Positions 29,612-36,483 of a stretch of 36,483 nt of DNA are shown one piece after another. Position numbers and translations under genes: made by a program. Where the stretch lies: NCBI GenBank assembly GCA_019136685.1, contig JAGVTS010000081.1:1-36483 (forward strand), given 5' to 3'. The DNA comes from Bacillota bacterium. GTDB taxonomy: Bacteria > Bacillota > DTU025. The notes below the pieces were generated by a model. It had not been told where the DNA came from and searched no databases. It saw only the letters and a program-made list of their open reading frames with translations. How positions within the stretch are numbered: the first letter of the stretch is position 1; every line of letters begins with the position of its first letter.

Positions 29612-30595
29612 ATGTTGAGGGTGACCGCTCCGTGCCGACTACATCTTGGCCAGCTAGATCTGAACGGCTCGCTGGGACGGATGTATGGGGGCATTGGGGT
29701 CGCGCTCGATGGCCCGAGAATCGTGCTTCGGGCCGAGCGCCAGGACGGGCTGGTCGTGGAGGGATTCGACACCGCGCGCGTGTCCGATTTGGCCAGGACA
29801 TTCATGAACAAAGCGCAGATCGGATCAGGGGCGCGAATCGTTGTACGGGAGTCAATCCCGGCCCATATAGGGCTGGGATCAGGAAGTCTGCTTTCGCTCT
29901 CTGTGGGCTCAGCGCTTTCTGCTCTGTACGACTTGGGGCTGACTATAGAAGATGTGGCGCGAATGATGTTGCCCAGCGACAAGTGTGATGTATGTGTCGG
30001 CATATTCAAGAGCGGCGGACTCGTAGTGGCCAGCGGCGTTCCGAGAGAACTTGATTGGCCGGGCGCCGAGGGTTACGTGCCTCCAACGATCTTCCAGCGC
30101 CCATTTCCCCAAAACTGGCGTTTCATAGTGGTGACTCCGGAGACAGCGACACAGCTTGGCCAGACGCGCCACGGGATACCCATTGACATGACTCCGCCCA
30201 TTCCCCCCGAGGATGTGGGCCTAGTATGTCGACTCCTGGTGATGCAGCTTCTTCCTGCAGTGATTGAGGGAAACATAGACGAGTTCGGGCAGGCGCTCAC
30301 AGAGATGCAGTGGACCATAGGCAAGCAGTTCGCCCAGTTTCAGGGCGGACTCTACAGCCATCCGTCTGCCGAGGGGATCGTCCGCCTTCTGCTCGACAAT
30401 GGAGCGACCGGGGCAGGCCAGAGCTCGTGGGGCCCAACGGTCTACGCAGTTGTGGAAGGCGATGATGCAGCACAACGCCTGGAGACAACGGTCGGCGCAT
30501 ATCTTGCGGAGGCGAATATCGCTGCGCACGTAAGGTGTCTTAGGGTCAGAAACTCGGGGGCACAGGTCGCGTGGGAGGATGGTGGCCGAGCATGA
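29612..30595 (+). CDS. mptG: Beta-ribofuranosylaminobenzene 5'-phosphate (beta-RFAP) synthase
   Basis: This 327 aa GHMP-kinase-fold protein catalyses the first committed step of tetrahydromethanopterin synthesis, joining PRPP and p-aminobenzoate. The N-terminus MLRVTAPCRLHLGQLDLNGSLGRMYGGIGVAL and the motif HIGLGSGSLLSLSVGSAL are characteristic, and a C-terminal GQSSWGPTVYAVVEG segment matches the family. The first possible starts at 29600 and 29603 crowd the AAAGGAG site; ATG 29612 at 11 nt is the better choice. It overlaps the next gene as ATGA. Its presence implies that the cell makes an H4MPT-type cofactor, in keeping with ftr and fwd genes downstream. Confidence 0.88.
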   Translation: MLRVTAPCRLHLGQLDLNGSLGRMYGGIGVALDGPRIVLRAERQDGLVVEGFDTARVSDLARTFMNKAQIGSGARIVVRESIPAHIGLGSGSLLSLSVGSALSALYDLGLTIEDVARMMLPSDKCDVCVGIFKSGGLVVASGVPRELDWPGAEGYVPPTIFQRPFPQNWRFIVVTPETATQLGQTRHGIPIDMTPPIPPEDVGLVCRLLVMQLLPAVIEGNIDEFGQALTEMQWTIGKQFAQFQGGLYSHPSAEGIVRLLLDNGATGAGQSSWGPTVYAVVEGDDAAQRLETTVGAYLAEANIAAHVRCLRVRNSGAQVAWEDGGRA

Positions 30596-32496
30596 CCTGC
30601 CAGCCGATGATCTCAGAATCGTGGGCAAGATGCCGACAGGCGGGCATGGATCCCGAGAAGAGCCCGAGGGCGGTTCGGGTATCGTCGAAGGAGTTCGACT
30701 TGCATTTCCAACACGCCAGCGACATTGCCAGGTTGGCTAGGCCGCTCATGGATGATATGTTATCGTTTGTGTCTTCCGGGTTCTGGGTGTTTCTCACTGA
30801 CTCACACGGATGCATCCTGGCATCGCGTGCAAGCCAGCCCTGTTTGGACTCGGGCGAAATTGATATCACTCCGGGGACGCTGTGGAGTGAGGAACACCAG
30901 GGCACTAGTGCTGTCGGTCTAGCCATACGGGAGGGCGTTCCCTGTACGGTCAGCGGAGCGGAGCACTATTTCGCGGCTTATCGCCGGCTGGCCGGAGCGG
31001 CCACTCCCATTGTCAGTCCCGAAGGCGAATTCCTGGGCGTAATCGGAATACTGGGCGTAGGCGATGCATGTCATCCTCATACACTCGGAATGATCGTGGC
31101 GGCGTCTGCCGCCATCGAAAACCAGATGAAGCTGGAACGCGCCGCAAATCAGCTTTACTCGGTCATCCAGTCGATCTCCGATGGCCTGATTGCTGTTGAC
31201 AACGATGGATTCATAACCCACATGAACTCCGTGGCCGGCAGGATTTTCGGACTCAAGACGTCGAGCTGTGTGGGTATGCCTGTGGAGGAAGTGTTCAAGG
31301 GCTCATTTCCTCTTCTGCAGATGTTCAAGACGGGCAGGGAAGGTTTCAACGACCGAGAACTTGCAATCACATTCAATGGGCGCAGAGTACACATCACCGT
31401 GTCGAGCAGGCCTGTCTGCTCCGAGCAGAGGAAGGTGTTCGGTGTAGTACTGACGTGTCGGGAGATGAAGTCCGTTCAGCGACTGGTCACCCGAATGGCA
31501 GGGGCGCAGGCGCGGTTCACCCTGTCCGACCTGGTCGGCGAGGATCCCAAGTTTCTTGCGGCTATAGCGATGGCCCACCGCGTTGCGCGCTCCGACTCGA
31601 CTGTGTTGATCATCGGAGAGAGCGGAACGGGCAAGGAGCTGTTTGCCCAGTCTATTCACAATGCGAGTCCGCAAAGAGAAGGCCCTTTTGTGGCCGTGAA
31701 CGCGGCCGCGCTCCCGCGGGATCTGGTCGAGAGCGAGCTATTCGGATATGAGGAGGGCGCGTTCACCGGCGCGAGGAGGGGAGGGCGCCCAGGCAAGTTC
31801 GAGCTGGCCAGCGGAGGTACTCTGCTTTTGGACGAGATCGGCGACATCCCGCTGGAGGTGCAGATCAGCCTGCTTCGGGTGCTGCAGGAGAAGCAGGTGG
31901 TGCGCATCGGCGGGCATGCTCCGATTCCCCTGCAGATGAGGGTCATAGCCGCCACCAACAAGGACCTAGCGCGCCTGGTGGAGGAGGGGCGTTTTCGCCT
32001 GGATCTTTACTACCGAATCAGCGTAGTCAACCTGACGGTGCCGCCGCTGCGCGAGCGCAACCGGGATGTGCTTCTGCTGGCGGATTGCTTTCTCAAGCGT
32101 TTCGCGAAGCTCAGGGGGCAGGGCGAGATATCATTGTCGGAAAAGGCGCGGGAGGCCTTGATGCGTTACTCGTGGCCCGGCAACGTGAGAGAACTGCAGA
32201 ACGTGATCGAACAGGCCGTGCATATGCTGGAGGGAAATGAGGTAGGTCTAGAGCACCTCCCTGAGCGGATTCGCGATTCTCAGCCGGATCCGGCGGCAGT
32301 CGCAATCGCACTGGACACTCCGGGATTGTCCACTCTCAACCAGGCGGAGAGGGCCCTAATGCTCAAGACATTGAGATCATGCGGCGGCAACATCAGCAAT
32401 GCAGCCAGATGCCTTGGCATAGGCCGGACCACCCTCTACCGAAAGCTGGCACTGCACGGAATCGACCTGGGTTCTATGAGGAAGACCGCCACATAG
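30592..32496 (+). CDS. Sigma-54-dependent transcriptional activator (AcoR-like: GAF, PAS, AAA+, HTH)
   Basis: This 634 aa activator has the AcoR/DhaR layout. The N-terminus (SWARCRQAGMDP) leads into a GAF-like sensor (about residues 45-175), followed by a PAS domain (SVIQSISDGLIAVDNDGFITHMN, about 190). The AAA+ domain has Walker A GESGTGKE, the sigma-54 contact motif GAFTGA, Walker B GGTLLLDEIGD and an arginine-finger region. The C-terminal Fis-type HTH reads GGNISNAARCLGIGRTTLYRKL. ATG 30592 shares ATGA with the mptG stop, although GGGAGG is 13 nt away; GTG 30571 has no site. A -24/-12 promoter 230 bp downstream of this gene points to local control of the C1 genes. Confidence 0.94.
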   Translation: MTCQPMISESWARCRQAGMDPEKSPRAVRVSSKEFDLHFQHASDIARLARPLMDDMLSFVSSGFWVFLTDSHGCILASRASQPCLDSGEIDITPGTLWSEEHQGTSAVGLAIREGVPCTVSGAEHYFAAYRRLAGAATPIVSPEGEFLGVIGILGVGDACHPHTLGMIVAASAAIENQMKLERAANQLYSVIQSISDGLIAVDNDGFITHMNSVAGRIFGLKTSSCVGMPVEEVFKGSFPLLQMFKTGREGFNDRELAITFNGRRVHITVSSRPVCSEQRKVFGVVLTCREMKSVQRLVTRMAGAQARFTLSDLVGEDPKFLAAIAMAHRVARSDSTVLIIGESGTGKELFAQSIHNASPQREGPFVAVNAAALPRDLVESELFGYEEGAFTGARRGGRPGKFELASGGTLLLDEIGDIPLEVQISLLRVLQEKQVVRIGGHAPIPLQMRVIAATNKDLARLVEEGRFRLDLYYRISVVNLTVPPLRERNRDVLLLADCFLKRFAKLRGQGEISLSEKAREALMRYSWPGNVRELQNVIEQAVHMLEGNEVGLEHLPERIRDSQPDPAAVAIALDTPGLSTLNQAERALMLKTLRSCGGNISNAARCLGIGRTTLYRKLALHGIDLGSMRKTAT

Positions 32497-35451: not shown

Positions 35452-36483
35452 GTATGAGGGTGTGGTGTGTGCATTCTGCGGATCACTGTGCGATGACATC
35501 ACACTGAAGGTCGAGGACAATGCGATAGTGTCAATGACCGGTGGATGCGCCATTGGGCGAAAGCGCTTTCTGAGCCCGCCGGAGGCCAACGCGCCTTTGG
35601 TGAAGGGCCGCGAAACCGGCCTTGATCAGGCGATAGACGCTGCAGTGCGCATCTTGTCGTCGGCGCGGTACCCGCTGATCTACGGGCTGTCGAGTACCAC
35701 TGCCGAGGCTCAGGCCGCTGCCGTTCGTCTCGCTGAAACCCTGGGAGCGACCATCGATTCCACATCATCGGTCTGCCACGGGCCCGGCACCATCGCGCGA
35801 CAGATGCTGGGTATTCCCACCTGCACCCTGGGCGAGGTCAGAAACCGCGCCGATGTGGTCCTTTTCTGGGGGTGTAATCCCGTAGAGGCCCATCCCCGCC
35901 ATTTCGGCCGCTACTCAGTGCAGGCCCGCGGCTGGAAGACTCCCGAAGGCAGGCAGAACCGCACCCTCATAGCCGTGGATGTTCGCAAGACCCTGACGGC
36001 CAAAATGGCGGATGTCTTTCTTCAGGTGGAGCCCAACTCGGACTTCGAAGTGCTGACAGCTCTGCGCGCCCTGATAAACGGCGCGAACTTGACGGGAGAC
36101 ACCTTCGGAGGCGTGCCCCGCAGCCAGCTGGAGAAGGCGGCGCAGACGCTGCTTGGGGCGAAATACGGGGTGATCCTGTTTGGAATGGGCCTCACCATGA
36201 GCAGTGGATGCCAGCACAATGTGTATCAGGCATTGATGCTGGCCCGGGATCTGAATGATCACACCGCCTTCGCGGTGATACCTATGCGCGGTCACGGTAA
36301 TGTCACCGGGGCGGAGACTGTGATGACATGGCTCACAGGCTACCCGTTCGCCGTTAATTTCAGCCGAGGCTATCCACGCTACAGCCCGGGCGAGTTCAGC
36401 GCGGTGGACGTGCTAGTCCGAGACGAGGCCGATGCTGCGCTGGTGGTGGCGTCCGACCCTGCGGCCACATTTCCGGCGGCAGC
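35444..36483 (+). CDS. fwdB: Formylmethanofuran dehydrogenase subunit B, truncated by window end
   Basis: The first 346 residues of FwdB/FmdB are visible; the gene continues past the right edge. GTG 35444 is 7 nt after GGAGG, while ATG 35438 abuts that site. The N-terminus has CAFCGSLCDD with a fourth cysteine in GGCAIG (Cys9, 12, 16, 35), a [4Fe-4S] motif. SSVCHGPG places Cys111 where archaeal FwdB has the cysteine (or selenocysteine) that binds tungsten or molybdenum. FWGCNPVEAHPRHFGRY and PMRGHGNVTGAE are further family segments. With fwdD it forms the catalytic core for reversible CO2 to formyl-methanofuran chemistry. Subunits A and C presumably follow. Confidence 0.93.
   Translation, partial: MAEYEGVVCAFCGSLCDDITLKVEDNAIVSMTGGCAIGRKRFLSPPEANAPLVKGRETGLDQAIDAAVRILSSARYPLIYGLSSTTAEAQAAAVRLAETLGATIDSTSSVCHGPGTIARQMLGIPTCTLGEVRNRADVVLFWGCNPVEAHPRHFGRYSVQARGWKTPEGRQNRTLIAVDVRKTLTAKMADVFLQVEPNSDFEVLTALRALINGANLTGDTFGGVPRSQLEKAAQTLLGAKYGVILFGMGLTMSSGCQHNVYQALMLARDLNDHTAFAVIPMRGHGNVTGAETVMTWLTGYPFAVNFSRGYPRYSPGEFSAVDVLVRDEADAALVVASDPAATFPAA

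Follow-up and report, generated by a model that had tools for sequence, protein, structure and literature searches.

A probable redox-type formylmethanofuran dehydrogenase operon with a shortened tetrahydromethanopterin branch in Bacillota

Does a bacterium of the phylum Bacillota encode a redox-type formylmethanofuran dehydrogenase (Fwd), and what remains of the pathway around it? The question is raised by contig JAGVTS010000081.1 (C56), which was analyzed over its entire length of 36,483 nucleotides (the window). It belongs to a metagenome-assembled genome (MAG, G000) of 2.89 Mb in 254 contigs, 93.74% complete and 2.56% contaminated. The final 6.9 kb of the window carry, on the plus strand, an mptG-like gene, a sigma-54 activator gene, an ATP-grasp ligase gene, ftr, an fwdD-like gene, and fwdB. 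Gene calls were based on NCBIfam and Pfam profile matches, with bit scores compared to the model cut-offs. These matches confirmed the single-strand run of mptG, ATP-grasp, ftr, fwdD, and fwdB listed in the original prediction, which had overlooked the activator gene lying inside it.

The reading favored here, at a probability of roughly 60%, is that the operon encodes a genuine molybdenum- or tungsten- and [4Fe-4S]-dependent formylmethanofuran dehydrogenase, FwdDBA-C, together with the formyltransferase Ftr. It would act as a stand-alone interconverter of CO2 and a formyl carrier (or formate), switched by a sigma-54 activator. The host is probably anaerobic.

FwdB and its partner genes

Counted from the ATG at 35438, FwdB of the window contains C11-x2-C14-x3-C18...C37 and Cys113-His114-Gly-Pro, the same as archaeal FwdB. 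The four N-terminal [4Fe-4S] cysteines that had been predicted (Cys11, 14, 18, and 37) were present, as was the metal ligand, given earlier as Cys111 and renumbered here to Cys113. The cysteines are not diagnostic, being shared by four of five FhcB proteins from proteobacterial plasmids (the other sequence is short). The Cys-His ligand was absent from all five, and no fwdD was annotated beside any of them (0/5) in the stretches shown, where the gene table is incomplete. The premise that the methylotroph Fhc complex has lost its redox features therefore applied to the ligand and to fwdD, but not to the cysteines.

The same operon occurs in UBA5389, a separate assembly of the same genus, entered in the taxonomy as unclassified Bacillota (handles G007 and G398 are seemingly this one genome). 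Its complete FwdB scored 447 bits against PDB 5t5i_B, the archaeal tungsten enzyme, versus 71 bits against 6s6y_B, which we take to be the methylotroph FhcB (PDB 6s6y being Fhc).

The FwdB tree comprised 37 rows, with the ligand-less FwdB of genome G086 included but placed outside the counted Bacillota group. For the alignment, 15 of 31 archaeal loci were chosen, and locus L043 was omitted from the tree because its reading frame is broken. Proteobacterial FhcB was split from Bacillota, Caldisericota, and archaeal FwdB with support of 100/99 and with long FhcB branches. The 16 archaeal rows formed one clade (99/99), and the Bacillota and Caldisericota rows were located between archaea and FhcB. 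The window protein did not fall within hydrolase-type FhcB and its metal-ligand site was intact; by motifs and tree it resembles the archaeal redox enzyme and lies far from proteobacterial FhcB, as originally proposed. Owing to the long FhcB branches, 13 open forks among 34 inner branches, and the involvement of Bacillota rows in three changes, the tree cannot settle the direction or number of transfers. Judged by its sequence, window FwdB is very probably a redox-type enzyme, of a kind already reported.

At columns invariant in eight full-pathway genomes, FwdB retained 91 of 94 reachable positions in the window, 108 of 112 in UBA5389, and 110–112 of 112 in the UBA5449 group (G234, G365, and G400), with all 112 kept in UBA5449 itself. 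The fwdB gene is under purifying selection. Between this MAG and UBA5389, the ratio of nonsynonymous to synonymous substitution rates (dN/dS) was 0.09 for fwdB, the lowest among 12 operon genes, 0.12 for ftr1, and 0.14 for mptG; the inputs comprised the truncated fwdB, the fwdC portion past a frame shift, and the ligase open reading frame (ORF) from 32593. In five genomes all PF00384 matches were FwdB: one each in G000, G007, G234, and G400, and a pair in G365. The other carriers had further matches besides FwdB.

The remainder of the operon was found on contig C65 of the same MAG, which reads, inward from its end, second ftr, fwdC, mch, mptN-like ligase, citG-like gene, and fdhD, with mobA 1.25 kb further on. 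In UBA5389 the order is unbroken: mptG, activator, ligase, ftr1, fwdD, fwdB, fwdA, ftr2, fwdC, mch, mptN-like, citG-like, and fdhD. By this order, C56 presumably ends in the opening portion of an operon divided between two contigs, with the 3' end of fwdB and fwdA in the gap between C56 and C65. Of the genes expected to the right, fwdC and mch were thus recovered, while Mtd had no match and fwdA was not seen in the contigs looked at.

A separate FwdD, as predicted, is represented by an FwdD-like gene whose NF042908 score lies below the cut-off and whose product keeps 8 of 10 invariant columns. A fwdD homologue adjoins fwdB in 13/13 ligand-bearing Bacillota FwdB rows and in two Caldisericota. 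FwdA of UBA5389 is full-length, passes TIGR03121, and aligns with 5t5i_A; it retains 118 of 133 invariant columns, and the UBA5449 group 126–128. On C65, fwdC matched TIGR03122 with 233.5 bits, and the gene is intact in UBA5389. Behind the operon, fdhD is found in this MAG, UBA5389, UBA5449, and AS23, accompanied by mobA in this MAG, UBA5449, and AS23; both genes were therefore read as a cofactor supply retained for FwdB. Among the other fetched operon loci, mobA occurred only in Caldisericota, further downstream, and the AS08 contig ends too early to tell.

Two variants of FwdB were encountered elsewhere in Bacillota. In G309 and G241, of one genus, the metal-ligand codon 112 is an in-frame TGA (L064:9506-9508 and L071:9891-9893, minus strand), which likely denotes a bacterial selenocysteine FwdB. 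Stretches of 54 and 58 nt form stem-loops there with z-scores of only -1.43 and -0.77, so that a selenocysteine insertion sequence was not demonstrated. In G086, an ftr-ligase-fwdB-fwdA cluster (L074:8219-12804) encodes FwdB with the four cysteines, without the Cys-His ligand, and with no fwdD ahead, an apparent independent step toward a hydrolase-type complex.

Shortened pathway and formyl carrier

Within the class, two of the 12 genomes (this MAG and UBA5389, one genus) had an FwdB above the family cut-off; in a sample of 398 genomes from the phylum, 11 did. In stretches fetched from FwdB-carrying genomes and two Caldisericota, some of which end at contig ends, a shared core surrounds FwdB: ligase, fwdD, fwdB, fwdA, ftr, and fwdC, usually followed by mch, mptN-like, and citG-like genes. 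Pathway families were compared in 13 bacterial carriers, 12 Bacillota and one Caldisericota.

Mtd (PF01993) was matched in none of the 13, G000 and G007 included. MtdB (PF09176), searched in nine genome handles (eight distinct genomes, as G007 and G398 are seemingly both UBA5389), had no match in this genus or the UBA5449 group and was found in DTU030 and two Caldisericota. DUF2193 was present in 8/13 carriers, with no match in this genus and the UBA5449 group; an mtdB homologue lay in the fetched stretch of six DUF2193 carriers besides those hit by the PF09176 search. Mch was detected in 10/13 carriers, with no match in the UBA5449 group. Its scores were 244.1 bits in this MAG (cut-off 228.8; scored in a frame that also takes in neighboring genes) and 234 in UBA5389, compared with 362–404 for the best matches of eight others. 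Of the 71 Mch columns that do not vary among the eight full-pathway genomes, 56 and 52, respectively, were kept.

A complete tetrahydromethanopterin (H4MPT) branch was accordingly rejected for this genus in its present assemblies, since MtdB, Mtd, and DUF2193 had no match. The C1 module of the original prediction is not supported as a complete pathway, given these gaps, the divergent Mch, and the unmatched MfnB and MfnF described below. From the gene content, loss seems to run from the methylene end toward Fwd, with Fwd being retained. With MtdB, Mtd, and DUF2193 gone, the module would stop short of the methylene level.

Ftr1 of the window keeps 84 of 105 invariant columns (84–89 overall). A second, divergent Ftr paralogue (76–77/105) stands before fwdC, the usual place of ftr (L002:2354-3307 and L005:12906-13850); among the stretches fetched, two ftr genes were seen only in this genus. 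MptG is 89% identical to its UBA5389 counterpart. Six full-pathway genomes share 69 invariant MptG columns; window MptG deviates at 14 of these, and UBA5449 is altered at 9 of the 14 too (window 29600-30595, L072:11675-12679, and L008:406-1395, covering this genus and the UBA5449 group). These shared changes make an altered MptG substrate in both possible.

DUF2193 (L073:4743-6257 and equivalents), archaeal according to Pfam, accompanies MtdB in the loci examined. Its model, built from 6 sequences, was mostly helical (pLDDT 75.2). A PDB sequence search gave one match at E 0.94, no Foldseek match was below E 0.001, and VIA-align rows all had Z ≤4.4. As a C1 entry enzyme it was rejected, with no convincing PDB sequence or structure match to support any function.

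The same 8/13 carriers, this MAG among them, gave no match to either MfnB (PF04476) or MfnF (TIGR03123); the remaining five had both, and both methanogen controls were positive for each. The usual carrier may therefore not be made. The gap could mean that methanofuran is taken up from methanogens, that its furan is made by another route, that the genes have diverged too far for the search to detect, or that the carrier is not the usual one.

The model of the window ATP-grasp protein showed an ATP-grasp fold, with biotin carboxylases as the nearest structures. Plasmid matches of the UBA5449 ligase homologue amounted to 35 records from ten genera, the same genera and number as for window Ftr. 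The second ligase of the operon is nearest to MptN (248.8 bits, below the cut-off of 350). In Methylorubrum, MyfA, partly similar to MfnD, and MyfB, 33% identical to MptN, make the glutamate side chain of methylofuran (PMC8141765, available portion). Going by their families, their positions, and the arrangement of the Aquabacterium cluster, the two ligases of the operon may act like MyfA and MyfB; for the second, MptN itself is just as good a reading. Because side-chain-type ATP-grasp ligases stay in the operon while MfnB and MfnF are unmatched in 8/8 genomes, a tentative suggestion, with the odds against it, is that in this genus, the UBA5449 group, DTU030, G270, and Caldisericota, Fwd and Ftr use a carrier other than methanofuran, or a furan made by novel enzymes.

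For the archaeal enzyme, the available part of PMC11656701 describes formate production from CO2 by FwdB/D, passage through an internal cavity to the two-zinc site of FwdA, and condensation there with the amine carrier; such dehydrogenases also work in reverse. In the favored reading, FwdB and FwdD would interconvert CO2 and formate using low-potential electrons, and formate would move within the complex to FwdA, which would couple it to an amine carrier or release it. An H4MPT-type pterin would then receive the formyl group from Ftr and may be cyclised by Mch to the methenyl form, the chain ending at either of these two levels. Gene content, motifs, operon conservation, selection, and the lack of the other families in the MAGs searched were observed directly; metal binding, activity, regulation, the identity of carrier and pterin, direction, and electron partner are predictions.

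Alternative explanations

Several points weigh against the favored reading. Besides the MfnB/MfnF gap and an Mch divergence that could mean decay, fwdA was not seen in the contigs of this MAG looked at, without a genome-wide search. FwdA of UBA5389 is a poor discriminator of type, scoring 406–472 bits against five archaeal-type PDB chains and 348.5 bits against 6s6y_A. A 29-bp tandem duplication on C65 (L002:2218-2275), real or an assembly error, frame-shifts the start region of fwdC. No FwdF/FwdG partner was noticed among the ORFs near the UBA5389 operon, where no search aimed at FwdF/G was made.

Some of these observations would also suit a decaying relic, the leftover of an inherited H4MPT/methanofuran pathway on its way out, whose surviving genes do little or nothing: DUF2193, MtdB, MfnB, and MfnF are unmatched, Mch is divergent here and unmatched in the UBA5449 group, and fwdC is frame-shifted in this assembly. 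Such decay is considered unlikely in view of the low dN/dS of fwdB and ftr1 and the near-complete invariant columns in the full-length FwdB of UBA5389 and the UBA5449 group. The promoter candidate, the activator, and fdhD are all kept, and a reduced operon persists also in another family (f51).

The complex might instead substitute for a formate dehydrogenase, formate leaving FwdB for Fhs, or the reverse, with a secondary pterin part. FwdB is the sole PF00384 protein found in this MAG, and Fhs (formate–tetrahydrofolate ligase) is present, so that a formate-to-folate link is possible; the lack of matches to methylene-level H4MPT families and to MfnB and MfnF fits as well. However, ftr is kept and even duplicated alongside mptG and two ligases, which points to pterin formyl transfer and makes the substitution distinctly unlikely.

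A hydrolase-type Fhc as in methylotrophs, where formyl from H4MPT is hydrolyzed to formate and FwdB is a scaffold, would account for ftr standing amid fwd genes as in fhcBADC, for the four cysteines (also in 4/5 proteobacterial FhcB), and for an FwdA similar to both types. As a family assignment it was rejected on the ligand motif and the FwdB tree. As a function it is very unlikely: the Cys-His ligand, absent from 5/5 FhcB, is retained and accompanied by an fwdD-like gene, FwdB groups with archaeal FwdB, MtdB is unmatched, and the one ligand-less Bacillota FwdB (G086) is not preceded by fwdD.

The nearest FwdB relatives are in Bacillota MAGs (89% identity in UBA5389, then 65–68%), followed by Caldisericota (54–56%) and archaea (46–52%). 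Despite this archaeal similarity, archaeal contamination or a chimeric contig is strongly disfavored, to the point of being negligible, by tetranucleotide composition (correlation of the right part of the window of 0.912 with its left part and 0.952 with the UBA5389 operon, versus 0.285 with an ANME-1 locus), by synteny with UBA5389, which carries the operon amid bacterial-looking genes, and by the tree, where Bacillota rows fall outside the archaeal clade. FwdB relatives and composition thus support the assignment of the locus to a bacterium.

Operon features, neighbors, and comparison with known systems

Table 1. Features of the window with coordinates, strand, and basis of assignment.
Feature	Position	Strand	Basis
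Bacterial microcompartment (BMC) cluster	12799-20865	-	
mptG-like gene, beta-RFAP synthase family (H4MPT synthesis)	29600-30595	+	TIGR00144 174.9 bits, cut-off 113.5; NF040726 equivalog 186.9, below 328
Sigma-54-dependent AAA+ activator gene, DhaR/PrdR-like	30571-32496	+	NF008485 412.1 bits, below equivalog cut-off 551
Imperfect inverted motif, possible activator-binding site	32501-32520	+	Several columns invariant in 7-sequence alignment; putative function
Sigma-54-type -24/-12 promoter candidate, TGGCATGTATATTGCG	32725-32740	+	Top match of this stretch; equalled in 10/500 mononucleotide shuffles
ATP-grasp ligase gene, MyfA/MfnD-like (carrier side chain)	32827-34059	+	PF02655, ATP-grasp_3 kind; ORF open from 32593; putative MyfA identity
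ftr1, formylmethanofuran:H4MPT formyltransferase	34010-34975	+	TIGR03119 371 bits, cut-off 292.6
fwdD-like gene, molybdopterin-binding subunit	35107-35451	+	NF042908 75.2 bits, below the model's 175
fwdB, catalytic subunit, 348 codons, truncated by contig end	35438-36483	+	ATG 35438; TIGR03129 443.1 bits, cut-off 327.8

Starts of two genes were revised. The fwdD-like ORF spans 35032-35451, and its start is probably GTG 35107 (114 aa), picked from homologue length; for the ATP-grasp ORF, ATG 32827 is the probable start instead of 32593.

Activator homologues occupy the same position in UBA5389, UBA5449, AS08, AS23 (cut), DTU030, and G270. After the activator gene, the best -24/-12 match was (T/A)GGCAY-N5-TTGC in 7/7 related stretches, and between 0 and 63 of 500 mononucleotide shuffles per stretch gave a match as good; as the stretches are related, these counts lack independence. 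In the UBA5449 group the sites occupy different DNA-alignment columns from the rest, so that shared descent of the sites was not demonstrated. The candidate site precedes DUF2193-mtdB-ligase in DTU030 and G270 and the ligase in this genus and the UBA5449 group, as if DUF2193 and mtdB had been excised from between. By these sequence features, the operon is apparently under sigma-54 control.

The BMC cluster lies beside sugar-type ABC transporter genes and encodes a shell protein, two EutN/CcmL proteins, a PduL-type phosphotransacylase, an aldehyde dehydrogenase, a DeoC-like aldolase, an RpiB-like isomerase, and an RnfC-like protein; presumably it is a compartment of the sugar-phosphate type. 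The sugar and BMC neighbors noted previously are therefore real, but they lie on the opposite strand. In UBA5389, cheB-, cheR-, and fliW-like genes precede mptG (from a reading of translations only), and the BMC adjacency is thus not conserved in the sole comparator looked at.

Formylmethanofuran dehydrogenase fixes CO2 without ATP. A cut-down Fwd that is the sole PF00384 protein found would offer a simple system for the role of the enzyme beyond methanogenesis and methylotrophy, and the MfnB/MfnF gap turns the nature of the formyl carrier into a testable question. Within Bacillota, operons that are complete, that lack MtdB and DUF2193, that lack Mch as well, or that have lost the ligand (G086) offer comparisons which put in order both the losses from the pathway and the conversion of the redox enzyme into a scaffold.

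Among known systems, archaeal FwdABCD(FG) (PDB 5t5i) shares the FwdB motifs, a separate FwdD-like gene, and the FwdA, FwdC, and Ftr families. It differs in that here ftr and the ligases lie within the operon, Mtd, MfnB, and MfnF had no match, and no polyferredoxin was noticed, although no search aimed at it was made. Methylotroph Fhc likewise has ftr encoded with FwdA, FwdB, and FwdC homologues, and the Aquabacterium Fhc cluster also includes ATP-grasp, RimK-type, CitG-like, and MptG-like genes, but unlike the present operon it has furan-synthesis genes. Fhc further differs by FhcB without the ligand (5/5), unannotated fwdD, and annotated MtdB (3/5) and Fae (2/5).

The closest described bacterial operon is fwdDBA-ftr-fwdC of the Hakuba Actinobacteria, with an N-terminal [4Fe-4S] domain, a catalytic Cys118, and no fwdE/F/G, in genomes with the Wood-Ljungdahl pathway and no methanopterin synthesis genes (PMC7325909, available text; one ambiguous sentence there states that tungstopterin motifs are lacking in the Fwd-like operon). 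Insofar as that text describes it, the core gene order is the same; here, mptG and an mptN-like gene lie in the operon and fdhD/mobA behind it. H4MPT/methanofuran genes in Firmicutes and Synergistetes, with fwdD retained in Firmicutes, are reported in PMC5020050, whose available part does not describe the truncated form, a lone Mo/W-type protein, or missing furan genes. In the parts available, PMC7331816 had still reported no bacterial FwdB, and PMC10100899 counted 149 and inferred transfer from archaea.

Redox-type Fwd in bacteria, the subject of the original prediction, was hence already in print, as far as the available parts of PMC5020050, PMC7325909, and PMC10100899 show. The truncated operon and its missing furan genes were undescribed in the titles and abstract openings returned by a literature search. 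What looks new is the cut-down form itself, which combines the lack of MtdB, Mtd, and DUF2193 matches, MfnB and MfnF unmatched in 8/13 carriers, a divergent Mch, attached fdhD/mobA, and a sigma-54-type promoter candidate.

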